Below are positions 5,065-26,314 of a DNA stretch of 32,637 nt, in pieces; position 1 is the first letter of the stretch, and every line of letters starts with the position of its first letter. The notes under the pieces are model-generated. The model did not search any database and was not told the DNA's origin. It worked only from the letters and a program-made list of their open reading frames with translations. A program made the position numbers and the translations under genes. This stretch comes from an uncultured bacterium (lineage in GTDB: Bacteria > Verrucomicrobiota > Kiritimatiellia > RFP12 > UBA1067), in the NCBI GenBank assembly GCA_902776615.1, contig CACYQU010000023.1, positions 1 to 32,637 on the forward strand, written 5' to 3'.

Positions 5065-6122
5065 CGAAAAGGCTTCTTTTTGCGGCAGTGGCGTCGGTCC
5101 TGGCGGGTTGCTATCCCGGCAGATTCACTTCGAATTACGATTCCGTGTTCGAGATCAGCAACACTGACGACGACAGTGCCGTTCTGGACGAGACCGGCCA
5201 TAACGAAGAGTCCGAGCGTCGGATAAAGAAGCGCCTGATGGAGCTTCAGATGGAAGAAGAGCCCGTCTATCAGATGAACGCGGGCGATATGATAGAGATA
5301 CGCGTCTATGGGCATGACGATATCAGCATGAAGACCAAAGTAGGCCCCGACGGGACCGTTGGCATAGCGTTCATCGGCCAGATAAAGTTGAGCGGATGCT
5401 CCATCGCAGAAGGTGCCGACAGGATACGCGACGGGCTTGCGCCGTATGTGAAGAATCCGGTCGTCAGCATAACGCTGATAGAAGTTCACAGCGAGACGGC
5501 GACGATTGCCGGCGCGTGCGCGAATCCTGGCGTGTACGGAATCTCGAACGGAACGAAAATCGCGGATCTCTACGCAATGGCGGGTTCGAGCGCGGAACGG
5601 CTCTTCAATGGCGTTGACGTCGATGTGGCTGATTTGGATCATTCAATGATAATCAGAAACGGCGAAATTCTGCCTATCGATTTCAGAAAGGCGATAGAGC
5701 AGGGCGACGTGTTGCACAACATACGCATGCGGAAGGGCGACTATGTGTTCATTGCACAGCGCATGGAGGCTTCGGTCACCATATGCGGAGAGATCCGCCA
5801 TCCGCACAAGCGGCTTTACGAGCCTGGGATGGGGTTGATAGAGACTCTTACAGCCGCCGGTTGGATGCTTGAAACCCACTGGAAGCATGTCATCATCATA
5901 AGGGACGGACTCTCGAATCCGAAACTGTACAAGGTTGACGTCGACGGTATCGTTACGGGCCGTTGCAGAAACATACCGTTGCGCGCCGGCGACATAGTCT
6001 ATGTCCCGAAAGACGATATTTCCGAATACAACGTGTTTGTGCGCAAAATCATGCCGACGGTGCAGATCATAAACCTCCTCGGTTCGCGCAATTCAGTTTT
6101 GAATCCGAGCTCGGATAAATGA
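5061..6122 (+). CDS. Polysaccharide export lipoprotein (Wza/GumB-like, OPX family)
   Basis: Outer-membrane or periplasmic export channel component for a surface polysaccharide, 353 residues. A lipoprotein signal peptide ends in LAGC with the acylated Cys at position 17. The poly-export domain spans about 73-140 (GDMIEIRVYGHDD), followed by SLBB-type beta-grasp domains starting near 148 (AGACANPGVYGI) and near 236 (ICGEIRHPH). The ATG overlaps the stop of the copolymerase by 4 nt, so the two are translationally coupled, as expected for partners in one envelope-spanning machine. The open frame extends upstream to 4905, but only the 5061 start gives a lipobox. There is no separate glycosyltransferase or flippase gene in the operon. 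Confidence 0.93.
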   Translation: MTKRLLFAAVASVLAGCYPGRFTSNYDSVFEISNTDDDSAVLDETGHNEESERRIKKRLMELQMEEEPVYQMNAGDMIEIRVYGHDDISMKTKVGPDGTVGIAFIGQIKLSGCSIAEGADRIRDGLAPYVKNPVVSITLIEVHSETATIAGACANPGVYGISNGTKIADLYAMAGSSAERLFNGVDVDVADLDHSMIIRNGEILPIDFRKAIEQGDVLHNIRMRKGDYVFIAQRMEASVTICGEIRHPHKRLYEPGMGLIETLTAAGWMLETHWKHVIIIRDGLSNPKLYKVDVDGIVTGRCRNIPLRAGDIVYVPKDDISEYNVFVRKIMPTVQIINLLGSRNSVLNPSSDK

Positions 6123-6126
6123 CGGC

Positions 6127-7476
6127 ATGAAATATTTCGTCTTTGCAATCGCCGCGATGGGCGTTCCGCCGCTGGCGGTGCTGCTGGCGCTGAACAAGCG
6201 CTGGACGAAGTATGTGGTGTGGGCGATAATTGCCGCGCTGGCCGTTTATCAGGGAACCGCGATAAACTTCTTCTCCAATGAGGACTATCGCGGAAGTTCG
6301 CGCGGAATGGAGGTGAGCGTGGCCTATCTCTTTTCGATGGCGATGCTCATCGTTTCGGCAATCAAGATGCGCTTTCCCGGTCTGTTCCCGTCAATCGGTG
6401 CGAAAATATATATGCTTTATTTTCTTCTCTGTCTGCCGTCCTGGGCGAGTGCCGAAAACACGCTCTTCTGCTGGATGGAAACGTGGAAGATGATAATGCT
6501 CTATCTCGTGTATCTTGCAGTGCGGGCTTATCTGGACATGACGGACGATGTGAAGTCTCTTATGCAGGGACTGGCGGGTTTCGCCATCTGGAATTTTCTT
6601 CTTGTCGTGAAGGATCACTTGCTCGGTGTGTATCAGCCGCACGGCGTATTTCCGCATCAGAACTGTCTTGCGATGGCGATGCACATATTCGGGAATCTGT
6701 TTCTGGCCTGCGGCCTTGTGCAGGGCTGGTCGCGTTCCTTTGTGGCTACTGCCGCTTTCATTGCGGCGGCGGCATGCGTCGTAAGAACGTATTCGCGCGG
6801 AGCCATCGCCGCGATGCCGGTTTCGTTCGCCCTCACTTTTCTGTGCGTTGCGGCAAAGTCGATGAGAGGCTCGTTCGTCAAGCTGGCCAGACGCATGGCG
6901 CCTTTCGTCGCTCTCGGCCTTGTTGGGCTGGCCGTCATGCTGCCGAAGATAATCGAGCGTTTCACGAACGCACCATCGGCGTCGAAGGATACCCGTGTGG
7001 AGCTTGCCAACTGCGCGTTCGAGATGATGAAGGATGAGCCGTGGCGGGGAGTCGGCATAAACAACTGGGGCATCAAGATCAACCCGCCGTACGACTACGC
7101 CGAGCGCGCGGGGCGCATCACAAACCGCGGCGAAGATTTCAAGGACGGTATAGTGGAGACCGTCTATCTGCTAGTCGGGGCGGAGTGCGGAATACCTGCG
7201 CTGACGGCGATGCTGCTGTGGTTCTTCTATTATCTTTTCTTGTGTCTCAAGCTCGTCGGCAAACTTGCAGGCACACCGTACGCGCCCATTCCGTGCGGAT
7301 TGTTCGGAGGATTGTTCGTATGCTATCTGCAGAGCTGCCTTGAATGGGTGCTGAGGCAGCAGATAAACCTGATTCTCCTCATGATATTCTTCGCCATGCT
7401 CGATTATCTCGGCGCAAACTGGCGCAGCATCAAGCGCAACGCGCTTGAAACTGCGGTCGTAAAACCAGCCAAATGA
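6127..7476 (+). CDS. O-antigen ligase / Wzy-like polymerase family membrane protein
   Basis: Multi-pass inner-membrane protein of 449 residues with about ten to twelve hydrophobic helices. The Wzy_C (O-antigen ligase) signature is seen in the large periplasmic loop: a DTRVELANCAFEMMKDEPWRGVGINN stretch, of which WRGVGINNWG near residue 305 is the core, preceded by conserved arginines (TYSRGA, near 220). Such proteins either polymerise repeat units or ligate glycan to a carrier; sequence alone does not separate these. The ATG lies 4 nt after the upstream stop and the gene closes the export operon. Arg-rich positions and the location next to a copolymerase favour a polymerase role. Confidence 0.88.
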   Translation: MKYFVFAIAAMGVPPLAVLLALNKRWTKYVVWAIIAALAVYQGTAINFFSNEDYRGSSRGMEVSVAYLFSMAMLIVSAIKMRFPGLFPSIGAKIYMLYFLLCLPSWASAENTLFCWMETWKMIMLYLVYLAVRAYLDMTDDVKSLMQGLAGFAIWNFLLVVKDHLLGVYQPHGVFPHQNCLAMAMHIFGNLFLACGLVQGWSRSFVATAAFIAAAACVVRTYSRGAIAAMPVSFALTFLCVAAKSMRGSFVKLARRMAPFVALGLVGLAVMLPKIIERFTNAPSASKDTRVELANCAFEMMKDEPWRGVGINNWGIKINPPYDYAERAGRITNRGEDFKDGIVETVYLLVGAECGIPALTAMLLWFFYYLFLCLKLVGKLAGTPYAPIPCGLFGGLFVCYLQSCLEWVLRQQINLILLMIFFAMLDYLGANWRSIKRNALETAVVKPAK

Positions 7477-7502: not shown

Positions 7503-8117
7503 CTAGCCGATGCGGACGCGGCGGCCTTCGATGGAGTATTTGCCGGAAGCGATTATGTTCAGAGCTTCAGGGAATGCGATGTGCTCCTGAACCTGAATGC
7601 GTGCATGAAGGGTCTCGGGTGTGTCGTCCTCCAGTACAGGAACTGCCTTCTGCACGATGATTGGCCCCGAGTCGGTTCCTGCGTCCACGAAGTGCACGGT
7701 AACGCCGGCGACCTTGCAGCCGTAGTCGAGCGCCTGCTTCCAGCTATGTACGCCAGGAAACGCCGGCAGAAGTGCAGGGTGTATGTTGAGAACCCTGTTC
7801 GGGAACGCCGCGAGAAGTTTGGGCTTCACGATTCGCATGAACCCCGCCAGTACGACCGTATCCACGCCAGCCTCTTTGAGGATCTCGATGCACCTGTCCT
7901 CGGCGGGGCCCTCAAGCTTCGTCTTCCACGGCGCGCAGTTCAGATACTGGCAGGGTATGCCGTGCCGCTTCGCCCGTTCGAGGATTTTCGCGTCCGGAAC
8001 ATCGGCTAGAACGATACGTATGTCGGCATCGAGCGAACCTTCTGCGATGGCATCGACAATTGACTGCATGTTCGAGCCTGCGCCCGAACCCAACACACCT
8101 AGATGAAGCTTTCCCAT
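7503..8117 (-). CDS. purN: Phosphoribosylglycinamide formyltransferase
   Basis: GAR transformylase of de novo purine synthesis, transferring a formyl group from 10-formyl-tetrahydrofolate to GAR in the cytoplasm. The 204-residue length fits PurN. The phosphate-binding GSGAGSNMQ is at residues 10-18, and the catalytic trio is Asn111, His113 (NIHPALLP) and Asp149 (GTDSGP). A longer open frame extends upstream to 8330, but the ATG at 8117 starts the family fold exactly (MGKLHLGVLGSG) and lies 7 nt after a TATAAT box. The gene stands alone, divergent from the XylR-type regulator and convergent with the exopolysaccharide operon. Confidence 0.96.
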   Translation of the reverse strand: MGKLHLGVLGSGAGSNMQSIVDAIAEGSLDADIRIVLADVPDAKILERAKRHGIPCQYLNCAPWKTKLEGPAEDRCIEILKEAGVDTVVLAGFMRIVKPKLLAAFPNRVLNIHPALLPAFPGVHSWKQALDYGCKVAGVTVHFVDAGTDSGPIIVQKAVPVLEDDTPETLHARIQVQEHIAFPEALNIIASGKYSIEGRRVRIG

Positions 8118-8124
8118 GACGCGT

Positions 8125-8133
8125 ATTATAGCA
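8125..8133 (-). promoter_or_regulatory. Extended -10 promoter of purN (leaderless)
   Basis: On the minus strand TGCTATAAT ends 7 nt before the purN ATG, placing transcription start at or next to the start codon. No Shine-Dalgarno sequence fits in the gap. Confidence 0.7.
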
Positions 8134-8171
8134 TAATCCGCGCGGCACGGCGCCAGGGTGCGGCGGATTAT
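8133..8171. promoter_or_regulatory. Inverted repeat between divergent promoters
   Basis: ATAATCCGC (8133-8141) and GCGGATTAT (8163-8171) form a perfect 9-bp inverted repeat with a 21-nt spacer. Each arm touches one of the two divergent -10 boxes. It may be an operator for the adjacent regulator, or simply a mirrored promoter pair; the centre-to-centre distance of about 30 nt is near three helical turns. Confidence 0.45.
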
Positions 8172-8179
8172 GGTATAAT
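8171..8179 (+). promoter_or_regulatory. Extended -10 promoter of XylR-type regulator
   Basis: TGGTATAAT lies about 50 nt before the ATG at 8230, leaving a leader of about 44 nt that contains AAGGA at 8219-8223 as ribosome binding site. Confidence 0.65.
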
Positions 8180-8229
8180 AGCGCCGTCGCCGCACCAAAA
8201 GGGGGAATCCAATCAACCAAGGAATCGTC

Positions 8230-9384
8230 ATGACGCAGACAGTGCTTTTCATCGTGTACTCAAACAAGTATATCTGCGCCGACAGAATCGACGGCGCACG
8301 GCGGTATGCGGAGAAAGCCGGGTGGAGCATTCAGGTGATAGAGCGCAACGGAGGCGACAAGCCGGTTGATGTCGGCGGCGTGATCGATTTCTGGAAGCCC
8401 ATTGGCGTTATCGCCGAGTGCGGCGGCGGAATCCCCGAAATCTCCCGCAGAACGCTCGGTCGCGTGCCGTGCGTCTACCTCGACGATGATCCTGACAAAA
8501 CGAGCGGTCGCGGCCTGTTTGTGAATTCCGATTCGGAGCGCGTCGGCGAAATTGCGGCGAAGGAACTGCTCTCGATTGGATATCCGAACTATGCCTTCGC
8601 AGGCTGGCGGCGACCTCGCTTCTGGAGCGAGGACCGGCGCCGCGCGTTCGAAAGTGCGCTGAAACTCCACGGGCGCGCATGCGAAACGTTCCGCTGTCCG
8701 GAGGGCGCCGGCGAGATGACGCGCCGCGAGCGCATGCGCGAATGGCTCAAGACGCTGCCGAAACCTTGCGGACTTTTTGCGGTCAACGATCCCGTCGGGG
8801 AGGAGGTGCTCACGCTTGCTTCATCTTCCGGGATATCGGTTCCCGACGAGCTCGCCGTGATTGGTGTAGACGACGACCCTGTGATCTGCGAACGCACGAC
8901 TCCCACCCTCTCCTCCATACGTCTGGACTTCGGGCAGGGCGGCTACATCTGCGCGGAACTGCTGGATCGCCACTTGCACGACCCGTCTTTCAAAAGCGCC
9001 AGAATCAAGTTCGCGCCCGTATTCGTCACGCGCCGCCAGTCGACGCGGCGCTTTGCACAGACCGACAAGCGCGTCGCTCGCGCCGTGGAATTCATCAGGC
9101 GCAAGGCGTGCGACGGAATAGGCGCCGTTGATGTCGCGGCGGAAATAGGCGTTTCGCGGCGCATGGCCGAGATGCTCTTCAGCCGGTTTGTCCGCCGCAC
9201 GCTGCACGAGGAAATCGTGGCGGTGCGAATGGAACGCGTCGAAAGGCTTCTCTCAAATCCTCGCCAGGATATATCCGCGATATCGGGGCTTTGCGGCTGG
9301 ACGTCGACTTCGGCTCTTCGCAAAGCCTTCAAGGACGCCCACGGCGGACTTTCCATGCGAGAATGGCGCGCCGCCCGTATCTGA
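8230..9384 (+). CDS. XylR-type transcription regulator (sugar-binding domain plus AraC helix-turn-helix)
   Basis: Transcription factor of 384 residues with the architecture of E. coli XylR. Residues 1-270 form a LacI/periplasmic-binding-protein-like ligand domain (motifs GVIAECGG, FVNSDSERVGEIAAKELL, FAVNDPVGEEV, AVIGVDDDP). Residues about 278-384 form an AraC-type DNA-binding domain with two helix-turn-helix units (VDVAAEIGVSRRMAEMLFSRF and ISAISGLCGW). There is no N-terminal LacI helix-turn-helix, so DNA binding is C-terminal. AAGGA is 6 nt before the ATG. A terminator-like hairpin follows, and the next gene is an exported glycoside hydrolase with its own promoter, which is the likely target. 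The inducing sugar is unknown; pentoses are known for XylR itself but this copy is divergent. Confidence 0.92.
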   Translation: MTQTVLFIVYSNKYICADRIDGARRYAEKAGWSIQVIERNGGDKPVDVGGVIDFWKPIGVIAECGGGIPEISRRTLGRVPCVYLDDDPDKTSGRGLFVNSDSERVGEIAAKELLSIGYPNYAFAGWRRPRFWSEDRRRAFESALKLHGRACETFRCPEGAGEMTRRERMREWLKTLPKPCGLFAVNDPVGEEVLTLASSSGISVPDELAVIGVDDDPVICERTTPTLSSIRLDFGQGGYICAELLDRHLHDPSFKSARIKFAPVFVTRRQSTRRFAQTDKRVARAVEFIRRKACDGIGAVDVAAEIGVSRRMAEMLFSRFVRRTLHEEIVAVRMERVERLLSNPRQDISAISGLCGWTSTSALRKAFKDAHGGLSMREWRAARI

Positions 9385-9512: not shown

Positions 9513-11639
9513 ATGCGTCCATCAAAAGAAGGCATGGTGATGTCGTTCGCCGCGTGCGCGGCGATGGCTCTTTCGGTTTTTTGTGTTTTTGCGGGCGAGG
9601 GCGACGGCGCGTACCGCGTGCGCAAAGACGACGCAGGGCGCTGGTGGGTTGTCGATCCCGACGGGCGAGACATGTTTCTGCGCGGCATCGATCACGCGAA
9701 CTGGAACGGCCACTTCTGCGAGGCGCTCGGCGTAAATCCGTATCGCGAGGAGAACAAGAAGCGCTACGCTTCGCAGGCCGACTGGGAAAAGGAAACTCTT
9801 GCGCGCCTCAAATCGTGGGGCTTCAACGCGCTCGGCGCCGGATGCTCGCCCGAGCTGCGCGGGCGAGGGCTCCTCCACATTGAGTTTCTCGGCGTGGGCG
9901 AGGGCTTTTGCGCGAAAGGGGACGACTTCGCGATTTCCAGATTCGAGGGAACTCCAGGAACCGCTTTCCCTGACGTGTTCCGTCCCGATTTCGCCGCATT
10001 CTGCGACGAACAGGCGGCGCGGAAGTGCGCACCTCAGAAACAAGACCGCTCTATCCTCGGCTACTTCTTCGACAACGAGCTCGCATGGGGCGCGAAGGGA
10101 TCGTCCGAAACCGGTCTTTACGACGCCGTTGCGAAGATGTCGCAGACGCGTCACGCGCGCCGCGCACTTGACGAGTATCTCGCCGCGCGCGGACTAGTCG
10201 CAGGTGCCGCAGACGTGCCGCTCGATGCGAAGACAGGCTTTCTGCGCCTCGCGGCGAGACGCTATTTCGGCATAATCGGCGAGGCCGTCCGCAGGCACGA
10301 CCCGAACCACCTTCTGCTCGGTGCGCGCTTCGCCGGCCTCAGCTCCGCACACCGCGTCGTTTGGGAGGAGGCGGGAAAAGTCTGCGACATACTTACGTTC
10401 AACAACTACCCGTGGGCGGATCTTGACGAAAATGTCGTCTACTTTTCCCGCAAGGACGCAATCAAGGCGGCGGACGCCTACGCGTTGCGCTACGAATGGG
10501 CGAAGAAGCCGATGCTCATAACGGAGTGGAGCTTCCCTGCGCTCGATGCGGGGCTGCCGTGCTCAAGCGGCGCGGGCCAGCGCTTCAACACCCAGACCGA
10601 GCGCGTCCGCGCGACGGAGCTTTTCGCGCGCACTCTTCTCGCCTTGCCGTTCATGGTCGGCTACGACTACTTTATGTGGGTCGATGAACCCGCGCTCGGC
10701 ATAAGCCGCAAGTTCCCCGAAGACTCAAACTACGGGCTTGTCAACGGGCGGGGCGAACCATACGCCGGAATAACCTCTATGTTCGCGCGCCTCAATCCGC
10801 AGGCCGAGGCGCTCCACGCGCGCGGCGAAATGCCGCTTGTCCGCGCGGTCGACCGCGCCGCGCAGGCGAAGGCCGCCGTTTTCCCGTGTGACGCGTCGGC
10901 CTCATGCGCGAGCGCCGTTTTCACGCAGAGCGGCGACGAATACAGCCTTGACGCGCCGACGGGTCTCAAGCTCAAGGGACGCATCGGAGGCCGCTATGCG
11001 TTCGATTCCGTCGTCGCGGACGGCCTTGAGTGCGGTCCGTTCACCTTTATGCTCTATCACGGCGACTATCAGGATATCGACCGCGTCGAATCCGTCGAGT
11101 GGTTGCCAGAGCGTGGCGCGCTTCGCGTCACAGGCGTAGGCGCGAAGGGGGCGAAGTCGTTTAGGCTCGTGTATGATGTGATGCCGTTCGCCGCGAAACC
11201 GTGGTTTGCCGCGAACGTGGTGAGCGTCGAGAACACCTGCGCAGAGAATTTCTCGGATATCAAGGTGTTCTTCCGCCAGTACGCGCCATGGTCCGGCGAC
11301 TGGGCGAAGGGCGGCTACCGCGCTCCGCAGAACGTCTGGAAAGCGCCCGCGAGCGCGGTGTGGATACGTTCGGCGGACGGAGCATGGTGCGGCGGCGCGA
11401 GCTACGCGCAGACGATGCGCTACTTCATCTACTGGATCTCCGGCGACGGCGCGCCGCATCCGGACGCGATGTTCTCGCCGGTCGGTTCGACGCGCCTCGC
11501 GGCAGGCGCGGCCTGGCGTCCCGAAGGGCAGGTTTGGATGGTCGCGGCGGCGGGACGCGGCGGCGCGGACGGCTGGCGCAAGTTCTTGAAAGATTTCGCC
11601 GACACCCAATCGCGCGGCGTAGACTTGAATTGCAAGTAA
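9513..11639 (+). CDS. Exported clan GH-A glycoside hydrolase, agarase-like
   Basis: Secreted or periplasmic polysaccharide hydrolase of 708 residues. An N-terminal signal peptide ends near residue 27-33 (CVFAGEG). The following beta-alpha barrel opens with WWVVDPDGRDMFLRGID, the hallmark opening of agarase-like enzymes. Glu189 in the DNEL motif fits the acid/base and Glu338 in ITEWS fits the nucleophile of clan GH-A retaining enzymes. Residues from about 440 to the end look like beta-sandwich domains without catalytic motifs. The start ATG follows AAGGAAAGGAA by 6 nt; ATGs at codons 8 and 10 are alternatives. It is first in a transcript with the LamG surface protein and lies directly after a XylR-type regulator. 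Agarase is the nearest family by motif; the real substrate may be another galactan or host glycan. Confidence 0.82.
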   Translation: MRPSKEGMVMSFAACAAMALSVFCVFAGEGDGAYRVRKDDAGRWWVVDPDGRDMFLRGIDHANWNGHFCEALGVNPYREENKKRYASQADWEKETLARLKSWGFNALGAGCSPELRGRGLLHIEFLGVGEGFCAKGDDFAISRFEGTPGTAFPDVFRPDFAAFCDEQAARKCAPQKQDRSILGYFFDNELAWGAKGSSETGLYDAVAKMSQTRHARRALDEYLAARGLVAGAADVPLDAKTGFLRLAARRYFGIIGEAVRRHDPNHLLLGARFAGLSSAHRVVWEEAGKVCDILTFNNYPWADLDENVVYFSRKDAIKAADAYALRYEWAKKPMLITEWSFPALDAGLPCSSGAGQRFNTQTERVRATELFARTLLALPFMVGYDYFMWVDEPALGISRKFPEDSNYGLVNGRGEPYAGITSMFARLNPQAEALHARGEMPLVRAVDRAAQAKAAVFPCDASASCASAVFTQSGDEYSLDAPTGLKLKGRIGGRYAFDSVVADGLECGPFTFMLYHGDYQDIDRVESVEWLPERGALRVTGVGAKGAKSFRLVYDVMPFAAKPWFAANVVSVENTCAENFSDIKVFFRQYAPWSGDWAKGGYRAPQNVWKAPASAVWIRSADGAWCGGASYAQTMRYFIYWISGDGAPHPDAMFSPVGSTRLAAGAAWRPEGQVWMVAAAGRGGADGWRKFLKDFADTQSRGVDLNCK

Positions 11640-11667
11640 TCAACTAAAGCAAACAGGAGAAACAAGC

Positions 11668-14658
11668 ATGAGAACTACAAAGTCATTCGCGGCAAAGGCG
11701 GGCATCGCGCTTGCCGTCGTCTATCTCGGCGCTTCGGCGTTCGCCGGGTTCAAGCCAATCTCCGGAACGTACGCCGAGTCCGGACTTGTTGCGCGGTGGG
11801 ACGCCATCGACAACGCCGGAACAGGAACGCACGATTCCAGCGCAACGACATGGAAAGATCTCGTGGGCGACAACGACATGACGATCGTCTCCAATTCCGG
11901 CGCCGGGTGGAGAAACGGCAACGCCTTCTACATGAACAGCCTCGCCAACGGGGTCTGCCCGGCGTATGGCAAGAGTGGCAACACGACGTACAAGACCATC
12001 GAGATCGTCTATAAGAAGGCGACAAGCAAGGGCCGCCTCCTTTGGTGCGGCGGCGTCGATACGCGCTACGTCGCCTTCGACTACACCGACACGGCAGCGC
12101 CATGGAAGAACGCCAAAGTCTATTTTGACGGCGCGAAGAATACCCAGCACACTGTTGTGTCCGATTGCGAGCCTTCGTCTCTCGTCGCGCTGTACAACGA
12201 CTCAAATGCTGTTGTCGACATCTACCGCGATGGCGAGAAGAACAACGCGGGGGCAAAGAACGCGAACACGTGGAGCGTCGATGGCAACAGCACCATGGTG
12301 CGGCTTGGCTCCAGAAGCAAGACGAATACGAGCCAGAATACCACCCAAGGCTGGGAGGGCGAGGTTTACACCATCCGCCTCTACGACCGGCAGCTGACGC
12401 CTTTGGAAATCGCCCAGAACTACTCGCTTGACGCCGCGCGGTTCTTTGGCGCAGGGTTTGCGACGAATGTTGTCGTCGCGACGTCCGTCGAGGGTCTTGA
12501 AGGCAGCGAGACATCCGGAATGTACATGATTGACGCCGAAGGTCACGAGTTCTCCGCCCCGAAGACGGCGACAAAGAGCGGTGCCATCTACGACTGCACC
12601 GGCTACACGCTTGAAACATGGAACGGCTCGGGTTGGGGCGAGAGCGTCGCGCATGACGGCGAAACATCCTGCACTCTCTCGGACACATCGGCGCTCGTCC
12701 GCATCACATGGCAGTGGAAGAAAGCCGAAATCGTCGCACAGGACTACACATGGATGTCGTCGCCCGTGAACGCAAACTGGGATGGTTCGTCGGCCAACTG
12801 GAACAGCGGCGAGGTGTGGGTGGACGGCAACAACGCCGTCTTAGGCTCCTCTTCGCAGACTACGCTGTCGGTTGGCTCCGAACGCCTCGTGAACGACCTC
12901 ACGATCAACAATGTCGCCTACACCTTCAACGGCGCCGGCCCTCTGCGCGTCAAGGGCACCATCACCCCCGTCGGCGCGAAGGATCAGCACTTCAACGTCC
13001 CGCTTGCGAGCGGACGAGACGACGGCTCGCTCCATTTCTATGCGACGGGCGTCGATTGGCGCAGCGCATATCTCGACAGCGTGAACAACCTTCAGACGAG
13101 CACGGTGCTGGACGGGACGGTGTTCCTCATGGCGAAAGGTGACGGTTCCTTCGGCCCCGCCCCAGCCGCGCCAACGGAAAACATCGTGATCAATAGCGGC
13201 AACCCTACAATCTACGGGAACGCCTCCATCACCGTCCACTCCAACCGAATCGTCAAAATCAAATCGGGCGCGGCTCTGTGGACCGGCTCCAACAGCCCGT
13301 TCACCTACAAGGCGCAAATCGTCGCTGAACCGGAGGAGGATTCGGACTACAGTCTGGACACGAAGGTGAAGATCCGCAGCAACTGGGGCGGCCTCGTCAC
13401 GTTCGATCCGGGCGAAGGGCGTACCAACGCCTTCGGACGGCTCTTCATCGATACGCGTCGTCTCAAACTCGCGAGCGGCACGACAGTTGTGACAGGCCCC
13501 GCCACCAGCACTGGGGAGGACGCGATCGCCTACGTGAAGGGCAACGGATCGGCCTTCTCGACAGACAGGGGGTATCTGCTTGTTGACGGCGGAGAACTCT
13601 ATTCGCCGAAGATGGCAGACAACAAAGACCGCTACGTCGATGTCGGCGCGTACGGGCAGGTAGTTGTCACTAACGGCGGCAAGGTTGTCATGTCTGAGGG
13701 AGTCCAGTGGATCAACGGGCTTACGACGCCCGGCAAGCTCACTGTAACGAAGGGCGGGAGCCTCGCGGTGAACCAGCTGCGCGTGAGCCAGTCGGGTTCC
13801 AATCAATCTGAAGTCCACCTCGATGAGGGAGGTTTGATTGCGGTGCATCAGCTCCGCATGGACAATGCTTCGACAGGCATCTTTGCATTCAACGGCGGCT
13901 GTCTCCAGGCGACGAAGGAGAACCGTGCGTTCTACGCTGGGGCTGCCGCGAACTGGGCGAACGTCTCGTTTACGGTTGGTGAAAAGGGCGCGGGCTTTGA
14001 TCTCTCGAACGGCGTGAACCTCTGGTGGGGCAAGCCGCTCCAGATTGGCGTCGGCGAGGGAGAAACTGACGGTGGCCTCTTCAAGAAGGGGTCTGGCATT
14101 CTCGTACTCATCTCCGCAAACAGTTACAACGGACCGACCGTTCTCGAAAGCGGACGCATTCAGGCGCGTGCGGACCATGCAATCCCGGACGGCACGACAC
14201 TGCGTCTTGGAGGAGGCGAAGACACGCGCCTTACTGCGAGCACCTACGATTCTGAAAATCCGCGGCGCCCGACGGTTCTGTCTATCGCTCGCGTAGAAGG
14301 CAGCGGCGAGCTTGACGGCATGACGGCTTCTTCCGTGGGCGGTGTTGCGCCTTCTGCCGACGGCACAATTACATTCATGACAACATGCTCGCTTTCGGGC
14401 GACTACGAAGTGACGATCGGCGCAGAAGGTGCCGATTGCTCATGCCTCAAGGTTGCGGCTGGGCAGGATATTTCCGGTCTCAAGGTCAAAGTCATGAATC
14501 CTGAGACGCTTGACAGGGAGACTTCGTACAAGATTCTTGACAGCGGGTATGACAAGAAGTTCGACGAGAGCGCTCTGCCGGCGGGCTGGGGGCTCAAGTA
14601 CGCTGCCGACGGCGTCTATCTGCGCTTCAACAAGGGACTGATGCTCATAATCCGCTGA
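11668..14658 (+). CDS. Large exported surface protein: LamG domain plus autotransporter-type beta repeats
   Basis: Secreted protein of 996 residues with a signal peptide cleaved near residue 26 (ASAFA). Residues about 38-260 resemble a LamG/concanavalin-like domain (LVARWDA, WKDLVG, then VYTIRLYDRQLTPLEIAQNY). A segment near 367 (ANWDGSSANW) opens a long region rich in Gly, Asn, Thr and Ser that resembles a beta-helix. An autotransporter-associated repeat is clear near 800-832 (KKGSGILVL, YNGPTVLESG). There is no 12-stranded autotransporter barrel at the C-terminus; the chain ends instead in a short hydrophobic tail, GLMLIIR. CAGGAGA is 6 nt before the ATG and the gene is 28 nt after the hydrolase, so they are probably co-transcribed. 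A role in binding polysaccharide at the cell surface is inferred. Function is otherwise unknown. Confidence 0.8.
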   Translation: MRTTKSFAAKAGIALAVVYLGASAFAGFKPISGTYAESGLVARWDAIDNAGTGTHDSSATTWKDLVGDNDMTIVSNSGAGWRNGNAFYMNSLANGVCPAYGKSGNTTYKTIEIVYKKATSKGRLLWCGGVDTRYVAFDYTDTAAPWKNAKVYFDGAKNTQHTVVSDCEPSSLVALYNDSNAVVDIYRDGEKNNAGAKNANTWSVDGNSTMVRLGSRSKTNTSQNTTQGWEGEVYTIRLYDRQLTPLEIAQNYSLDAARFFGAGFATNVVVATSVEGLEGSETSGMYMIDAEGHEFSAPKTATKSGAIYDCTGYTLETWNGSGWGESVAHDGETSCTLSDTSALVRITWQWKKAEIVAQDYTWMSSPVNANWDGSSANWNSGEVWVDGNNAVLGSSSQTTLSVGSERLVNDLTINNVAYTFNGAGPLRVKGTITPVGAKDQHFNVPLASGRDDGSLHFYATGVDWRSAYLDSVNNLQTSTVLDGTVFLMAKGDGSFGPAPAAPTENIVINSGNPTIYGNASITVHSNRIVKIKSGAALWTGSNSPFTYKAQIVAEPEEDSDYSLDTKVKIRSNWGGLVTFDPGEGRTNAFGRLFIDTRRLKLASGTTVVTGPATSTGEDAIAYVKGNGSAFSTDRGYLLVDGGELYSPKMADNKDRYVDVGAYGQVVVTNGGKVVMSEGVQWINGLTTPGKLTVTKGGSLAVNQLRVSQSGSNQSEVHLDEGGLIAVHQLRMDNASTGIFAFNGGCLQATKENRAFYAGAAANWANVSFTVGEKGAGFDLSNGVNLWWGKPLQIGVGEGETDGGLFKKGSGILVLISANSYNGPTVLESGRIQARADHAIPDGTTLRLGGGEDTRLTASTYDSENPRRPTVLSIARVEGSGELDGMTASSVGGVAPSADGTITFMTTCSLSGDYEVTIGAEGADCSCLKVAAGQDISGLKVKVMNPETLDRETSYKILDSGYDKKFDESALPAGWGLKYAADGVYLRFNKGLMLIIR

Positions 14659-14667
14659 AAGCCGTGT

Positions 14668-15624
14668 ATGGATAGAAGAGGTTTTATCAAAGGCGCTCTT
14701 TGTGCGGCGGCCGGCGGTGCGCTTGTTCCATCGCGCGCCGCGCAGGCTGCGGAGCGTCCGCTGCGGACGGGGACGCTACCGCCCGCGACAGAGGCGCAGT
14801 ACTTCGGCGGCGGATGGCAGATGTTCATGTACTCCGGCCGCACGACGGACATAAGTCTCTCGACGCTCTTCCGCTCGCCGTCAGGCAGAATCGTCATGGT
14901 CGACGGCGGCTGGGGAGCGGACGGCGAGTTTCTGCTGGGCGAAATCAAGCGGCTCGGCGGCGTTGTGGACGCGTGGTTTCTCACCCACGCGCACAGAGAC
15001 CATTACAGGGCGCTCGGCGAGATATTGAAGAAGCCTGGTTGCGGCGGATTGAAGATTGGCCGCGTCGTCCACAATTTCGTTCCGCTCGACTTCATCGCGG
15101 AGGTCTCGCCGTCCGGCCTGCCGCATGTAAGGGAATTTCTCGACGACCTCGCGAAGAGCGGGATCAGTGTGGAGAAGCCCGGCGTCGGCCATGTGTTCGA
15201 CTTCGGTGAAGGCCTTTCGTTCGAGTGCCTGAACGAGCCTGATCTTTCGATGCGGCGCGACGCGATCAACAACTCCAGCGTATGCTACCGAGTCGTCAAC
15301 GCCGGAAAGTCCGTTCTGGTTACGGGCGACGTGAGCGAGGAGATGGGGGCGAAGATGCTCGCGACGCTGCCGCCGGAAAAGCTGAAAAGCGATGTCTGCT
15401 TTCTGTCCCATCACGGACAGATGGGCGCGAGCAAGGAGTTCTACGCGGTGGTCAGACCGGAGATCTGCATCTGGCCGACTCCGCAGTGGCTTTGGGACAA
15501 TGATCTTGGCGGGACGCACGGCCCGGGGTCCGGCCCGTTCCTCACGAATTACACAAAGTGCTGGATGCAGGATCTCGGCGTGAAGCGTCAGTTTCTTCTC
15601 ACACGCGATGTGATATTCAAGTAG
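14668..15624 (+). CDS. Tat-exported metallo-beta-lactamase-fold hydrolase
   Basis: Protein of 318 residues with a twin-arginine signal at the very start (RRGFIKG, residues 3-9) followed by a hydrophobic stretch and cleavage near AQA (25-27). The metal-binding signature HAHRDH is at residues 107-112, with TGD near 216 and SHHGQMG starting at 247, the order found in ComEC/Rec2-like and other metallo-beta-lactamase-fold hydrolases. Export through Tat implies folding with its metal in the cytoplasm. It begins 9 nt after the surface-protein stop and lacks a strong ribosome binding site. Substrate is unknown; a phosphodiester or ester on the degraded polysaccharide is only a guess from context. Confidence 0.85.
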   Translation: MDRRGFIKGALCAAAGGALVPSRAAQAAERPLRTGTLPPATEAQYFGGGWQMFMYSGRTTDISLSTLFRSPSGRIVMVDGGWGADGEFLLGEIKRLGGVVDAWFLTHAHRDHYRALGEILKKPGCGGLKIGRVVHNFVPLDFIAEVSPSGLPHVREFLDDLAKSGISVEKPGVGHVFDFGEGLSFECLNEPDLSMRRDAINNSSVCYRVVNAGKSVLVTGDVSEEMGAKMLATLPPEKLKSDVCFLSHHGQMGASKEFYAVVRPEICIWPTPQWLWDNDLGGTHGPGSGPFLTNYTKCWMQDLGVKRQFLLTRDVIFK

Positions 15625-16369: not shown

Positions 16370-17083
16370 TTAACTATCGGTCAGAATCGCGTCGAAACCG
16401 CCTCGCGCCGCGATGCGGTAGAGTCCCTTTCGGCGGAACTTCGACCGATCGACGAGCAGATAGCTTCTGTCGGCTGCGTCCAGCACCTTTCGCAGTATCT
16501 CCGCCTGGCGCTCATGGTTGGTCGTGGCCGTCCGGTCGTCCAGCCCGAACGCCGAGACGAACGCCTTCGTGATGTTGAAGCGCGACAGCTGCTCGAGCGC
16601 CGAGACGCCGAGGATCGAGTTGAGCTGCGGGTCGTAGTTGCCGCCCAAGGCGATCATGGCCCAGTGCGGAGGGAATTTCCTGAACAGGTGCATTACCGCG
16701 ATGGAGTTGGTTATTACCGTAAGGTGGTCGAATCCGCCGTGCAGAAGCAGAAGGGCGAGTTCGTAGGTGGTGGTGGACGAGTCCAGGAACAGTATGTCGC
16801 CTTCTTCGATGACGGCGAGCGCCTTTCGCGCGGCCGCGATCTTGGCGGCCCTGTGCGAGACGACGCGCTCGCGGTAGGCCTCCGGGTCGCCGCTGGGGTC
16901 TGGCGCATCGCGGTAGACTAGACCGCCACGCACTCGTTCGACGGAGTCGCGTTTTGCCAGTTCCGCCGCATCGCGGTGGACAGTTGCCGGGCTAACGTCG
17001 AAGCGCTTCATCAGTTCGTCGAGAGAGCAGGTCTTGTGGCTCTTTAGATACGCCATCATCTTCCTGATTCTGAGGGTGTCCAT
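16370..17083 (-). CDS. DeoR-family transcription repressor
   Basis: Repressor of 237 residues. Residues 5-57 form a DeoR winged helix-turn-helix (CSLDELMKRFDVSPATVHRD), and residues 75-237 the DeoR sensor domain, related to ribose-5-phosphate isomerase, with the DSSTTTYELA phosphate-binding segment near 108 and a conserved VTNS (about 134). DeoR repressors usually respond to a phosphorylated sugar intermediate. It faces the sugar cluster beginning at 17186 and is the obvious regulator of it. The frame is open upstream to 17119, but the ATG at 17083 sits 7 nt after an extended -10 and begins the fold. A palindrome over its -35 suggests it represses itself. Confidence 0.93.
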   Translation of the reverse strand: MDTLRIRKMMAYLKSHKTCSLDELMKRFDVSPATVHRDAAELAKRDSVERVRGGLVYRDAPDPSGDPEAYRERVVSHRAAKIAAARKALAVIEEGDILFLDSSTTTYELALLLLHGGFDHLTVITNSIAVMHLFRKFPPHWAMIALGGNYDPQLNSILGVSALEQLSRFNITKAFVSAFGLDDRTATTNHERQAEILRKVLDAADRSYLLVDRSKFRRKGLYRIAARGGFDAILTDS

Positions 17084-17090
17084 GCCGGAT

Positions 17091-17119
17091 AGTATACCAC
17101 AGCGTTTTGATGTTATCAA
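17091..17119 (-). promoter_or_regulatory. Promoter of the DeoR gene (leaderless)
   Basis: On the minus strand TTGATA (17114-17119), a 17-nt spacer and TATACT (17091-17096) preceded by TGG. The -10 ends 7 nt before the ATG, so the mRNA should start at or beside the start codon. Confidence 0.75.
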
Positions 17120-17177: not shown

Positions 17178-17185
17178 CTTCTGTG

Positions 17186-18100
17186 ATGAAAGTGTTCGAC
17201 TACATAGGGTTGGGGTTCTGCTCCAACGACCATCTGGCGGTGCTGCCGTTCATACCGCATGACACGAAGGTGCGAATGCTCGCGCATGCCGTGATGGGCG
17301 GCGGGCCGGCGGCGAACTCCACCGCCGCAGCGGCGTCGCTCGGGCTTTCGGCCGCGTTTGCGGGAACGGTCGGCGACGACGCCGACGGGCGGATGATTCT
17401 CGCGGACTTTGCGCGCCAGAAGGTCGATACGTCGATGGTGAAGATTCGCCCGGGCGCGACGAGCGCGATCGCCTATCTGTGGATCGACGAGCCTACCGGC
17501 GGTCGCTCCTGCGCATGGACACGCGAAGGACTCGACGAACTCTCCGCAGACGAGATCGACGCCGGCGCTATCGCGTCCGCGAAGGTGCTGCATCTTGACG
17601 GGCACAACGCGGCCGGCGCGATTGCTGCGGCCAAGGTCGCGCGCGAGGCGGGCGTGCTCGTCAACTACGACGCCGGAACCCATCGCGACGGAATGCACGA
17701 ACTGCTGGCGCTCGCTGACCTTCTCATCTGCTCGGAGGAGTTCATTTTGAAGCTCACAGGCCTCGCCGATGCCGAAGAGGCCGTGAGACGGGTGTGGGCG
17801 AAATACAGGCCCAAGGTCTGCGGCGCAACGATGGGCGAGAAGGGGTCGATGTGCTTCGACGGGAAGGACTTCGTCAAGTGTCCGGCGTTTCGTGTGGAAA
17901 AGGTGGTGGACACGACCGGATGCGGCGACCTCTTCCACACAGGCTTCGCCGTGAGATGGCTTGAGACCCGCGACCTCATGGAGTGCCAGCGCTTCGGCGC
18001 GGCGGTTTCGGCAATCAAGTGCCGCGGCCTCTCGGGCCGGCCCCCCTCCGCGCCGTCCCGCGCGGAGGTTGAGGAATTTCTAAAGGAAAGGAAAAACTGA
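17186..18100 (+). CDS. PfkB-family carbohydrate kinase
   Basis: Ribokinase/PfkB-fold sugar kinase of 304 residues that would phosphorylate a ketose with ATP. The first signature is GGGPAANSTAAAASLG near residue 37 and the second is DTTGCGDLFHTGF near 243, with the catalytic Asp in GCGD; the usual residue is Ala in GAGD, here Cys. The GGGPAA and GDxFH forms, and a KCRGLSGRP loop near the end, recall the subfamily that includes 6-deoxy-6-sulfofructose kinase (YihV) and ketohexokinase-like enzymes. This is recognition from memory, not an alignment. It is the first gene after the divergent DeoR repressor and is followed 1 nt later by a sugar isomerase, so it most likely acts on that isomerase's ketose product. 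IolC is a less likely identity. Confidence 0.88.
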   Translation: MKVFDYIGLGFCSNDHLAVLPFIPHDTKVRMLAHAVMGGGPAANSTAAAASLGLSAAFAGTVGDDADGRMILADFARQKVDTSMVKIRPGATSAIAYLWIDEPTGGRSCAWTREGLDELSADEIDAGAIASAKVLHLDGHNAAGAIAAAKVAREAGVLVNYDAGTHRDGMHELLALADLLICSEEFILKLTGLADAEEAVRRVWAKYRPKVCGATMGEKGSMCFDGKDFVKCPAFRVEKVVDTTGCGDLFHTGFAVRWLETRDLMECQRFGAAVSAIKCRGLSGRPPSAPSRAEVEEFLKERKN

Positions 18101-18101
18101 A

Positions 18102-19466
18102 ATGTTCAAGATCGGATATCTGCCGCTCAGCAAGGTAAACTGGACAAACGACACGCTGGAGGCCGCGCGCGAAAACGCAATCGCCTTCCTCAAGACGCTT
18201 CCCGACGTGGAGGTGGTCGCACCAGACCACATGCTGGCGCTGGAGGGCGAGGCGATCGAGGTTCTGGAGCAATGGGAGAAGGAGCGTCCCGACCTCGTCG
18301 TCACTCACTTTCTGACATTCTCGCTTGGCGTCGTGCCGCCGATGTTTGCGCAAAGGCTAAAGGTTCCGGTGCTTCTGTGGTCCCAGCCCGAACCCGACCC
18401 GAAGGGCGGGCGACTGCAGAACAACTCGTTCTGCGCGGCAAACATGAATGCACACCACATGTGGCGTCTCGGCATTCCGTATTTCTACGTCCACGCGCAA
18501 GCTGGCACGAAGGAGGCCGAAGAGCAGCTCATGAAGCAGATTCGCGTAGCGCAGGCCATGAAAGCGCTCGGACGCATGCGCATCGGACTCATTGGCGGAC
18601 GCGTGCCCGGCTTTTTCACGAGTTGCGTGGACGAGATGATGCTGCGTCGCACTCTCGGCCCCGAGGTGAAGATCATCACCGAGCACGAGCTTTTCACCGT
18701 CGCGCAGAACCTGACGCCCGCCGAGGTCGCAAAGGGAATCGCCATCATCGACGGGGATCTTGATACGCCTGCCTCCGACGCGCCTTGCAGCGCGCAGAAA
18801 GAGAAGTCCGCGCGCCTCATCGCCGCGGTGATGAAGCTCAAGGAAAAATTCTTCGTCGACACGTTTGCGATGCGCTGCTGGCCAGAGGTCATTCTGAACG
18901 AGTTCTACGGAATAGCAGTCTGCTCTACGCTCGGCCACCTGACGAACCACGGCTGTCTGACAGCCTGCGAGGGCGACATCTACGGCGCCGTAATGATGAA
19001 GATCGGCCAGATCATCTCGGGCGAACTTCCGTTCTTCTGCGACCTCATAATCTGCGAGGGCGACCACGGAACCGTGTGGCACTGCGGCGCGGCGCCGTGC
19101 AAGCTCTGCAAGCCCGGCTACAAGCCCGAGCTTCACTGCTCCGCAACGGTGGAGGGCGGCGGCGTGAAGGGGTGTACGGGCGAATTTCCGCTTAAGCCGG
19201 GCCGCGTCACGCTGGCGCGCCTGGGCGAGACGCGCGACGGAACCGGCTTCAGAATGCTCGTATGTCCAGGCACGGGTGTCGATACCGACCTTTTCGTGCG
19301 CGGCACGCCCCTGAACGTAAAGTTCGACGCGGGCTGCGAGGCTATCCGCCGCGAGGTGATGGAAAACGGCTGGGAGCACCATTATGCGCTCATGTACGGC
19401 GATCGCGTCGACGAGCTTACGGCCTTCTGCCGCAACATGAACATTGAAATGCATCTCGTGAAGTAG
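18102..19466 (+). CDS. L-fucose/L-arabinose isomerase-family protein
   Basis: Aldose-ketose isomerase of the FucI/AraA superfamily, 454 residues, shorter than FucI (about 590) and near AraA (about 500). N-terminal segments VTHFLTFSLG and LLWSQPEP match the first Rossmann-like domain; RIGLIGGRVPGF opens the second; LTACEGDIYGA carries probable metal-binding acidic residues; the C-terminal beta domain follows. An unusual Cys-rich stretch (CGAAPCKLCKPGY, near 330) is not typical of characterised members and may bind metal. The start ATG follows AAAGGAAAGG and begins 1 nt after the kinase stop. Family members isomerise L-fucose, D-arabinose, L-arabinose and, in some bacteria, other hexoses; the substrate here is not fixed by sequence. 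Confidence 0.87.
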   Translation: MFKIGYLPLSKVNWTNDTLEAARENAIAFLKTLPDVEVVAPDHMLALEGEAIEVLEQWEKERPDLVVTHFLTFSLGVVPPMFAQRLKVPVLLWSQPEPDPKGGRLQNNSFCAANMNAHHMWRLGIPYFYVHAQAGTKEAEEQLMKQIRVAQAMKALGRMRIGLIGGRVPGFFTSCVDEMMLRRTLGPEVKIITEHELFTVAQNLTPAEVAKGIAIIDGDLDTPASDAPCSAQKEKSARLIAAVMKLKEKFFVDTFAMRCWPEVILNEFYGIAVCSTLGHLTNHGCLTACEGDIYGAVMMKIGQIISGELPFFCDLIICEGDHGTVWHCGAAPCKLCKPGYKPELHCSATVEGGGVKGCTGEFPLKPGRVTLARLGETRDGTGFRMLVCPGTGVDTDLFVRGTPLNVKFDAGCEAIRREVMENGWEHHYALMYGDRVDELTAFCRNMNIEMHLVK

Positions 19467-19467
19467 T

Positions 19468-20865
19468 ATGACGTTGTTTGCGGCATTGATTGCAGCGGCG
19501 TTCGTAGGCGCCGAGGGCGGGGAGGTGCTCCGTCTTTTCCAGACGACCGAGGCGAAGGGGTTCCGCGAAATCGCAACGAGCGGCTTCACGATCCACCCCT
19601 ATCCCGCTGTCGAGGCGCTAGATGTGGACGCCGCCAAGCCGAAGCACGAGTTTCTGGCTCTCGGCGCGGCGCTCACCGATGCTTCGGCGTGGGTGTTCGC
19701 GAACATGCCAGCCGAACGCCGCGAAAGCCTGATGCGCGATCTTTTCACGCCTGCAGGCTGCAACCTAGGCGCGATTCGCCTGAACATCGGCGCAAGCGAC
19801 TATTCGACCGGTCTCTACAGCTACGACGACACGCCGGGCGATGTGGAGATGAAGAATTTCTCGCTTGCGCGCGACGAGGAGTTTCTCGTGCCGATTGCAC
19901 GGCGAATCAAGGCGCTGCGGCCGGACGTTTTCGTATTCGCCTCGCCGTGGAGCCCGCCGGGCTGGATGAAGACTTCCGGCCTGATGATCGGCGGCAGCCT
20001 CCGCGACGAGTGCATGCCAGCGCTTGCGAACTACTTTGTGAAGTACGTGCAGGGCTATGCGGCGCGCGGTGTCGCCATAGACGCCGTAACTCCGCAGAAC
20101 GAAACGGTTTACGACACCGCAGGGCAGTATCCAAGTTGCACCTACACCGCAGCGCAGGAGGGGGCGTTCGTGCGCGACCACCTCGCGCCTGCGTTTCGCA
20201 AGGCCGGTCTCTCCACGCGAATATGGGTGCACGACCACAATCCGAAGCCGAAGGACATTCCGCGCGTGATGGAACTGCTTGCGACGCCTGGCGTAAAGGA
20301 CGCCATCGACGGCGTGGCATGGCACTTCTACTGCGATCCCGCTTGCGCCACCAATCTGCCGACGGTAAAGGCGGCGCATCCAAACATCAGGTTCTTCCAC
20401 ACCGAAAACGGGCCGCACGTCGTTTTGCAGGAGCGCACCGAGATCTGGTGGGCGGCGAGGGTCTTCGCCATGCTGCAGAACGGATGCGAGCTGTTTACGT
20501 CGTGGAACCTGTGCCTCGACGAGCTTGGCACTCCGGCGACGGGTGCACATCTTTGCGGTGGCTTCGTGGTGGTGGACTCCGAGACGCACGATGTCGCCTA
20601 TTCGCCGCAATACCGCCTGTTCAGGCATATCGGCCCGTTCGTAAGGCGCGGCGCGAGCATAATGGAGGTTGATGGTTTCCGCGACGGCACGGAACTCATC
20701 CTCTTCAGAAATCCCGACGGCGAATACGTGCTTGTCGTCGCCTGCGACGGCTCGCTTGTTCGCCGAATACAGCGGCGTCGTCTGGTCGTCAAGTACAAAG
20801 GAAAGTACAAGTCGCTTCCGCTCCCCGGCGGACAGTGGTCCGTTTTGACATTGATATTCAAATGA
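19468..20865 (+). CDS. Exported GH30-family glycoside hydrolase
   Basis: Glycoside hydrolase family 30 enzyme of 465 residues with a short signal peptide (cleaved near residue 15-18). The barrel motifs are FASPWSPPGWMKT (157-169), Glu212 in VTPQNE as acid/base, and Glu313 in HTENG as nucleophile, followed by SWNLCLDE. The C-terminal beta-sandwich typical of GH30 closes the protein. Known GH30 activities include beta-glucosidase, glucosylceramidase, beta-xylosidase and beta-D-fucosidase. The gene starts 1 nt after the isomerase stop, inside an otherwise cytoplasmic catabolic operon, which suggests that it releases the sugar that the operon degrades. Confidence 0.88.
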   Translation: MTLFAALIAAAFVGAEGGEVLRLFQTTEAKGFREIATSGFTIHPYPAVEALDVDAAKPKHEFLALGAALTDASAWVFANMPAERRESLMRDLFTPAGCNLGAIRLNIGASDYSTGLYSYDDTPGDVEMKNFSLARDEEFLVPIARRIKALRPDVFVFASPWSPPGWMKTSGLMIGGSLRDECMPALANYFVKYVQGYAARGVAIDAVTPQNETVYDTAGQYPSCTYTAAQEGAFVRDHLAPAFRKAGLSTRIWVHDHNPKPKDIPRVMELLATPGVKDAIDGVAWHFYCDPACATNLPTVKAAHPNIRFFHTENGPHVVLQERTEIWWAARVFAMLQNGCELFTSWNLCLDELGTPATGAHLCGGFVVVDSETHDVAYSPQYRLFRHIGPFVRRGASIMEVDGFRDGTELILFRNPDGEYVLVVACDGSLVRRIQRRRLVVKYKGKYKSLPLPGGQWSVLTLIFK

Positions 20866-20884
20866 TCCAGAAAGGAATGCACAC

Positions 20885-21682
20885 ATGAACCTGAAAGTCT
20901 CCCTAGCGCCCGTGCTGGGCTACAACAAAGTGTTCGATGTCGGCGAGCTTGGCATGAAACTGACCCGTTTCGGCCTTCTGAAGCTTGCCAAGGGCACGAC
21001 TTACGAAGGCGACACTGGCGAAACGGAGGTTGCGCTCGTATTGATGGGCGGCAATTTCTCGGCCAGCGGCGACGGTTGGGCCTTTGAGGTGGCGAACGGT
21101 CGCGCCTCGCCGTTCACCGGCAAGCCCCACTGCCTCTACCTGCCGCGCCGCACGAAGTACTCGATCGCGGCGCTTTCCGACGTGGAGCTCGCCTACAACG
21201 CATCGCCGGCGACGCGCGACACCGCGCGCCCCACCCTCATCAAGCCGGAGGACACGCGCCACATCGCCCTTGGACGCGACAACTGGACGCGCACCTCGGA
21301 GATAATCCTCGACGAGAAGTTCGACTCCGAGCACTTCTACATTGGCGAGGGAATGATTCCGAGCGGCAACTGGTCGGGCTATCCGAGCCATCGTCACGAC
21401 GTGAACAATCCGCCGGCCGAGCTGGATATGGAGGAGACCTACTTCTACCTTTTCGATCCGCCGCAGGGTTTCGGCTTCCAGTCGGTCTACAAGCCCGATG
21501 GCTCACTGAACGAAGCCTATCGCGTGCAGAACTACGATACCGTCGCGATAGCCGAGGGGTACCATCCGCTTGTCGGAGCGCCGGGTTATCAGATGTACTA
21601 TCTCTGGACTATGGCCGGCTCGCAGGGCCGCGGGCTCGTGAGCTCCATGGATCCGGCCCATGCATGGGTGAAAAACGCATGA
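20885..21682 (+). CDS. IolB/KduI-type cupin isomerase
   Basis: Bicupin isomerase of 265 residues resembling 5-deoxy-glucuronate isomerase (IolB, about 270 residues). The diagnostic stretch is SGNWSGYPSHRHD near 160-172, whose His residues bind metal, with EETYFYLF (about 183) and a final YLWTMAG segment. IolB converts 5-deoxy-D-glucuronate to 2-deoxy-5-keto-D-gluconate in inositol breakdown. No iolG, iolE or iolD gene is in the window, so a full inositol pathway is not supported; a related aldose-ketose or uronate step in this cluster is equally possible. AAAGGA lies 9 nt before the ATG. Confidence 0.82.
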   Translation: MNLKVSLAPVLGYNKVFDVGELGMKLTRFGLLKLAKGTTYEGDTGETEVALVLMGGNFSASGDGWAFEVANGRASPFTGKPHCLYLPRRTKYSIAALSDVELAYNASPATRDTARPTLIKPEDTRHIALGRDNWTRTSEIILDEKFDSEHFYIGEGMIPSGNWSGYPSHRHDVNNPPAELDMEETYFYLFDPPQGFGFQSVYKPDGSLNEAYRVQNYDTVAIAEGYHPLVGAPGYQMYYLWTMAGSQGRGLVSSMDPAHAWVKNA

Positions 21683-21697
21683 TCAAAGGAAGGAAAA

Positions 21698-23152: not shown

Positions 23153-23172
23153 CAAGGAAAGGAGCGATTGCA

Positions 23173-25022: not shown

Positions 25023-25029
25023 GACAGAG

Positions 25030-26303: not shown

Positions 26304-26314
26304 CCAGGCGCACA

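Follow-up and report, generated by a model that had tools for sequence, protein, structure and literature searches.

Do a glycoside hydrolase, a large surface protein and a metallo-hydrolase encoded side by side in an uncultured member of the Kiritimatiellia form a single system, and if so, what do they act on? The question is raised by a 32,637-nucleotide stretch of DNA (contig CACYQU010000023.1 of assembly GCA_902776615.1, contig C23 of genome G000 in our set), which we call the window; its genome comprises 127 contigs and 2.35 Mb, with a completeness of 87.75%. The original prediction, made from the sequence letters alone, described an agarase-like hydrolase, a LamG/beta-repeat surface protein and a metallo-beta-lactamase (MBL)-fold enzyme exported by the twin-arginine translocation (Tat) route as one unit behind a XylR-type regulator. 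It took the unit for a possible non-Bacteroidetes way of binding and cutting a polysaccharide at the cell surface. Our analysis indicates that the three genes (gh, lamG and mbl) very probably form one functional unit, and that the proteins they encode probably strip a decorated polysaccharide with none of the machinery typical of Bacteroidetes.

All four genes lie on the forward strand in the predicted order. The regulator (8230–9384, +) joins a periplasmic-binding-like sensor to an AraC-type helix-turn-helix domain, with Peripla_BP_3 at 103.7 bits and HTH_18 at 39.6 bits, both above cut-off: the XylR architecture. It is followed by the hydrolase (9513–11639, +; 708 residues, possible later start at 9534), the surface protein (11668–14658, +; 996 residues) and the MBL protein (14668–15624, +; 318 residues), separated by gaps of 128, 28 and 9 bp, respectively. 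The next gene downstream encodes a DeoR-type regulator on the opposite strand (16370–17119, −), which puts the probable end of the unit at 15624. In two related loci, L039 and L042, the hydrolase stop and the lamG start overlap by 4 bp, which favors one message. From this layout we infer that the regulator and the trio are a co-transcribed, XylR-controlled operon. Counts of terminator-like sites (11 vs 7.5 in shuffled sequence, standard deviation 2.8) and promoter-like sites (1 vs 1.5) were uninformative. All three proteins appear to be exported: the MBL protein carries a Tat signal, and the hydrolase and the surface protein both begin with what looks by eye like a Sec signal. On the other side of the regulator, a PurN-like formyltransferase reading frame (7503–8330, −) runs into the divergent regulator gene at 8230. 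This overlap probably reflects a wrongly called start codon, as the PurN-like protein starts later in locus L036.

The strongest support for a single unit comes from relatives. Hydrolase matches occur in 80 of the 114 genomes of the family (E ≤ 1e-3), and eight other genomes of the same genus carry a full-length copy at 72–87% identity. The original prediction had named the lack of a conserved neighborhood as a ground for abandoning it; the neighborhood is conserved. The order gh-lamG-mbl is strictly adjacent in five of the eight close relatives (G088, G047, G065, G052 and G049). Among the other three, G101 has an 811-residue gene inserted between lamG and mbl, in G059 the arrangement is looser and the sequences more divergent, and G051 lacks it. 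Besides these eight, G056 shows the same order on a contig that starts within the hydrolase gene. A XylR gene lies upstream of the hydrolase in six of the eight, directly in G101 and G088 and one gene away in G047, G065, G052 and G049. The intervening gene in G047 (L039), the one of these four loci in which Pfam was run, encodes an alpha-L-rhamnosidase of family GH78 (Bac_rhamnosid6H, 332 bits), and in G065 (L040) an L-arabinose isomerase gene follows mbl.

The MBL family has its own distribution, with matches in 21 of the 114 family genomes (E ≤ 1e-3) and in 20 of 387 across the phylum (E ≤ 1e-15). Twenty mbl loci were gene-called (the window is not counted, nor are L104 and L105, which lie at contig edges); in nine of them the gene immediately preceding mbl matches the surface protein of the window, and some of these nine are without the hydrolase. 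Of 30 MBL-relative loci in named records, 25 belong to metagenome-assembled genomes (MAGs) labeled Kiritimatiellae, Verrucomicrobia, Lentisphaerae/Lentisphaeria or Victivallales, and the remaining five to 'uncultured bacterium' RUG isolates. Genes were called in eight of these 30, many of the others duplicating loci already in the comparison set. The record titles point to gut samples of goat, yak, roe deer, sheep, water-buffalo and horse, mostly ruminants.

In other genomes the two enzymes are joined in one chain. Loci L123 (7294–9507, 737 residues) and L124 (8690–10858, 722 residues) each hold a single open reading frame that encodes a GH50-like barrel followed by the MBL domain; L137 repeats the fused gene of L123, and the two were counted once. 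The barrel parts align with window hydrolase residues 30–449 at 41% identity (E about 1e-91 to 1e-95) and the MBL parts with window MBL residues 38–318 at 43–44% (E about 1e-66). Compared with each other, the two fusion proteins are 94% alike across the hydrolase portion and 81% across the MBL portion. Each has the active-site motifs of both enzymes, and the MBL domain sits where the hydrolase's own C-terminal beta region would be. Genome G117, which belongs to a different family of the phylum, has the same MBL joined to a protein bearing Glyco_hydro_42M (32.1 bits, cut-off 25.8). Fusion to both GH50-like and GH42-type partners argues more strongly than any other observation that the two enzymes belong to one process, and together with the adjacency kept in five of eight relatives it is why we regard the unit as real. 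From the fusions one would expect a single polypeptide that hydrolyzes the same substrate in two ways. Among the titles and opening parts of abstracts listed by our searches of the open-licence literature, we found no description of such a fusion or of a GH50-like/surface protein/MBL unit. Directly before the fused gene, L123 also encodes (5562–7250, +) a type I phosphodiesterase domain joined to a Laminin_G_3 domain.

What does the hydrolase cut? The predicted agarase likeness held at the level of the fold. No Pfam or NCBIfam family matched the protein, and searching the PDB by sequence and by profile returned GH50 exclusively at E < 0.01, most of the entries named agarases; the profile search listed five GH50 sequences only (E 4e-29 to 7e-24). 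An AlphaFold2 model (mean predicted local distance difference test score, pLDDT, 77; mostly 80–97 in the barrel and lower in the C-terminal part) matched GH50 structures with Z scores of 29.2–32.9, ahead of beta-glucuronidases and beta-galactosidases at 24.6, although a family's absence from the VIA-align listing does not by itself rule it out. The barrel spans residues 30–440 (9600–10832, +) and shares about 20–25% identity with GH50. Its putative catalytic residues, identified by alignment with GH50, are E189 in the motif DNELAW (10071–10088, +), at the position where 4bq2 has Glu and 4bq4 has Gln, and E338 in TEWSFPA (10521–10541, +). Both are invariant in 17 homologues, the rows kept in alignment A2 after L045 was left out for an in-frame stop. 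Of the six GH50 active-site residues given in PMC11079163, five are matched in printed alignments read by eye (N188, E189, E338, F387 and E403). The fold, the Glu pair and the active-site Asn, Phe and Glu are common to the window protein and to Aga50D, AgWH50C, PfGH50B, BpGH50 and Fsa16295Glu, the last assigned to a proposed subfamily, GH50_3. We are highly confident that the protein is a GH50-like retaining hydrolase.

Its likeness to agarases is incomplete. The position of Aga50D Arg752 is I397 in the window protein, an Ile invariant in the 17 homologues (by eye). The N-terminal carbohydrate-binding module of GH50_1 agarases is missing, as the barrel begins at about residue 30; Fsa16295Glu likewise has no annotated N-terminal module (PMC11079163). 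Unlike these GH50 enzymes, the window hydrolase instead has a C-terminal beta-rich region (residues 450–700; 10860–11612, +), delimited by the secondary structure of the model and by the fusion alignments, which stop at residue 449. Because of the Arg-to-Ile change and the missing N-terminal domain, we call the protein GH50-like, and a beta-galactoside seems favored over agar as its substrate, with a glucan also possible. A characterized GH50 enzyme from Victivallis vadensis, of the same phylum, is a beta-galactosidase according to PMC11079163.

The MBL protein was correctly predicted as a Tat-exported enzyme. Lactamase_B scored 42.3 bits (cut-off 22.7) and the Tat signal TIGR01409 18.4 (cut-off 16.7), with the motif RRGFIK at residues 3–8 (14674–14691, +), and TatC is encoded in the window genome. 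The metal motif THAHRDH (residues 106–112; 14983–15003, +) is intact: its HxHxDH core, Asp221 and His248/249 are invariant in 19 homologues. In the underlying alignment A1, the late-called starts in L039 and L042 were replaced by the earlier starts 9477 and 13832. Profile matches include ComEC, an acyl-homoserine lactone (AHL) lactonase and Pce/CbpE, and the AlphaFold2 model (pLDDT 84.5) is nearest to the ComEC MBL domain (Z 24.9, root-mean-square deviation 2.9, 241 residues), followed by Pce (Z 22.9 and 22.7) and then RNase J (17.3). ComEC and Pce are both phosphodiesterases, the ComEC domain being Mn-dependent, and they differ in two motifs, the His of Pce being replaced in ComEC by Asp in motif II and by Asn in motif III (PMC8579336). 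The window protein combines the two, with the motif II His of Pce and, by our own reading of the alignment, the motif III Asn of ComEC. It also shares with both an extracytoplasmic location, which with the closest folds and profile matches places it in a ComEC/Pce group. Unlike ComEC, it has no competence membrane domain and consists of the Tat signal and the MBL domain only, and unlike either relative this type is Tat-exported, free-standing or fused to a glycoside hydrolase, and sited in carbohydrate clusters. On these grounds the enzyme may well be of the phosphodiesterase type, an assignment we hold at slightly less than even weight.

In the surface protein, a passenger-associated-transport repeat (PATR; 14077–14163, +) reached 28.9 bits, above cut-off, in a whole-genome search and 25.3 bits (cut-off 27) in the scan of window proteins, where TIGR02601 scored 22.2 (cut-off 19.85). 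This is one autotransporter-type repeat near the cut-offs. Laminin_G_3 gave no match on the window protein itself; the LamG label is carried by one of eight orthologues (E 1.2e-4) and by one relative (51.5 bits, cut-off 27.6). A search of the PDB with the protein's alignment returned nothing usable (best E 0.21). With PATR autotransporter-repeat proteins it has in common the repeat, a signal-like N-terminus and beta-rich repeats. Unlike autotransporters, it has no beta-barrel found by Pfam (E 0.01 for the window protein, E 1 for the eight orthologues), a short hydrophobic C-terminal tail and an exchangeable N-terminal domain.

This exchange is evident among the orthologues in alignment A3. The beta-rich region at residues 371–996 (12778–14655, +) is 68–84% alike among the eight orthologues with L037 apart (47–53%); the window's copy is 74–84% identical to six of them and 51% to L037. 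Residues 28–265 exist in two versions that are 25–29% alike: version A (in the window a LamG-like domain at residues 28–262; 11749–12453, +), found in the window and G052 (81%), and version B, found in six others (70–86% among themselves), to which the window's copy is 25–28% identical. The versions cut across the phylogeny: of seven hydrolases compared, the window's is nearest those of G101 and G088, both version B, and the version A genome G052 has a hydrolase 97% identical to that of the version B genome G065. Between L040 and L041, flanks of the break are 94–100% alike in 150-bp blocks, dropping to 28–48% right after the signal peptide. The mosaic (L040, 7951–11650) extends two thirds into mbl (55–83%, 150-bp blocks), after which identity returns to 98%. 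A silent donor of the other version within the same genome was considered and rejected: in nine genomes there is no close copy elsewhere, the best other match being about 45% over the full domain. We therefore favor exchange between strains or species, and the swap looks like a cassette exchange. The occurrence of version A in two independent MAGs makes an assembly error less likely.

No SusC/SusD or ABC-transporter family was found among the 20 window proteins scanned, which are part of the window's genes. The TonB receptor family PF00593 has no match in the 87.75%-complete genome, SusD having been sought in the scanned proteins rather than genome-wide. Both results agree with the prediction. 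Within the part of the window that was scanned, the one transporter is a major facilitator superfamily (MFS) protein encoded in the next operon. The unit resembles the SusC/SusD-based polysaccharide utilization loci of Bacteroidetes in that its cluster puts a surface protein and exported enzymes together with a regulator; unlike those, it has a XylR-type regulator and a genome in which no TonB receptor was found. A non-Bacteroidetes surface polysaccharide system is accordingly plausible, with agar and porphyran disfavored as its target.

Taken together, the XylR-type regulator would control an operon whose three exported products act, outside the cytoplasm, on a single decorated polysaccharide that contains galactose. 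The GH50-like enzyme would cut beta-galactosyl bonds by the retaining mechanism of clan GH-A, with E189 as acid/base and E338 as nucleophile, and the MBL enzyme would remove a decoration; hydrolysis of a phosphodiester, as in its nearest solved relatives, is the likeliest reaction. The large beta-rich protein, the presumed substrate binder, would display a substrate-holding LamG-like domain that is exchanged between strains. We give this integrated account equal chances of being right and wrong. Several observations weigh against it. G051 encodes a hydrolase 87% identical to the window's without lamG or mbl, and the MBL family is also found in settings without a GH50-like hydrolase. A shared fold is no demonstration of activity, and MBL enzymes cover many reactions; GH50 enzymes, for their part, are mostly agarases. 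Exchange of the N-terminal domain suggests diversifying pressure, which a pure glycan-binding role does not predict. GDPD (glycerophosphodiester phosphodiesterase) genes next to mbl in L091 and L094, considered as a sign of phosphodiester chemistry, are a weak one, and we set this argument aside because all 19 genomes tested carry 4–16 GDPD matches. That number per genome is itself unusually high.

Each part of this account has a competitor. Under the same operon logic, the MBL enzyme could instead take off acyl groups as an esterase, open sugar lactones as a lactonase or remove sulfate as a sulfatase, still on the same polysaccharide. The profile match to an AHL lactonase and an arylsulfatase-named MBL among the Foldseek matches point that way, but ComEC and Pce, both phosphodiesterases (PMC8579336), stand well above other folds (Z 24.9 and 22.9 vs 17.3), and we think such an activity rather unlikely. 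The surface protein might be a general adhesin or phage receptor unrelated to the enzymes' substrate, its domain exchanged under phage or immune pressure. This would suit a cleanly exchanged N-terminal domain beside unchanged enzymes, and the many LamG-type domains in these genomes, but the placement of its gene directly before mbl in nine of the 20 loci, some without the hydrolase, indicates that the pairing with the enzyme is kept; we judge this reading unlikely.

As to the substrate, degradation of agar or porphyran is suggested by the PDB relatives, all GH50 at E < 0.01 and most named agarases, but, with no search made for agarolytic partner genes, is very improbable given the loss of the Aga50D arginine (I397), the missing agarase N-terminal domain, the mostly ruminant-gut origin of the relatives and neighbors such as rhamnosidase and arabinose isomerase. 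The polysaccharide might also come from bacteria, as a capsular or cell-wall glycan that contains rhamnose and phosphate bridges, the unit then scavenging other gut bacteria and not plants; this would suit the rhamnosidase beside the unit and the action of Pce on teichoic acid (per its structure entry name). Plant pectin is the better fit for the L-arabinose isomerase of one relative and for the rhamnogalacturonidase-like and beta-galactosidase-like genes that lie near mbl in L091 (matches below cut-offs), and we regard a bacterial glycan as quite unlikely. The rhamnosidase and L-arabinose isomerase genes adjoining the unit in relatives were counted for the integrated account above. A plant galactan is a possible but doubtful substrate.

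Other genes around these loci were also annotated. Beside its lamG-mbl pair, L091 (9346–16192) encodes, in addition to the rhamnogalacturonidase-like and beta-galactosidase-like proteins, a GDPD and a GlpT/PgtP-like MFS transporter; the NCBIfam matches of all four are below cut-off. In the window, a separate operon behind the divergent DeoR regulator (17183–30021, +) carries genes of an unassigned sugar or sugar-acid pathway: a PfkB kinase, an isomerase like the sulfoquinovose isomerase SftI (248 bits, cut-off 700), an exported-looking GH30, IolB (218 bits, cut-off 205), a GlcD-like oxidase, a 344-residue protein without assigned function, a class II aldolase, the MFS transporter, a glycerol-3-phosphate-oxidase-like protein and a HAD phosphatase. 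The oxidase-like protein (26352–28811, +; 819 residues) joins a glycerol-3-phosphate-oxidase-like flavin adenine dinucleotide domain to a BFD-like [2Fe-2S] domain and a pyridine-nucleotide-disulphide oxidoreductase domain. Before the regulator lies a Wzy_C O-antigen-ligase-type gene (6127–7476, +), which with the two forward-strand genes before it (3106–6122) is possibly an exopolysaccharide cluster.

These findings bear on how gut Kiritimatiellae, mostly known from MAGs, break down polysaccharides without SusC/SusD. The domain exchange offers a natural experiment in whether an exposed surface domain is selected by substrate or by phage. More speculatively, and in our estimate well short of an even chance, the MBL may found a class of exported glycan phosphodiesterases that partner with or are fused to clan GH-A galactosidases (GH50-like and GH42-like). 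They would allow SusC-free removal of phosphate-linked decorations and chain cutting in one step in Kiritimatiellae and Lentisphaeria, with a partner surface protein that swaps its exposed domain by cassette exchange. If so, MBL enzymes of the Pce/ComEC type acting in glycan breakdown would be an added class of decoration-removing enzymes.

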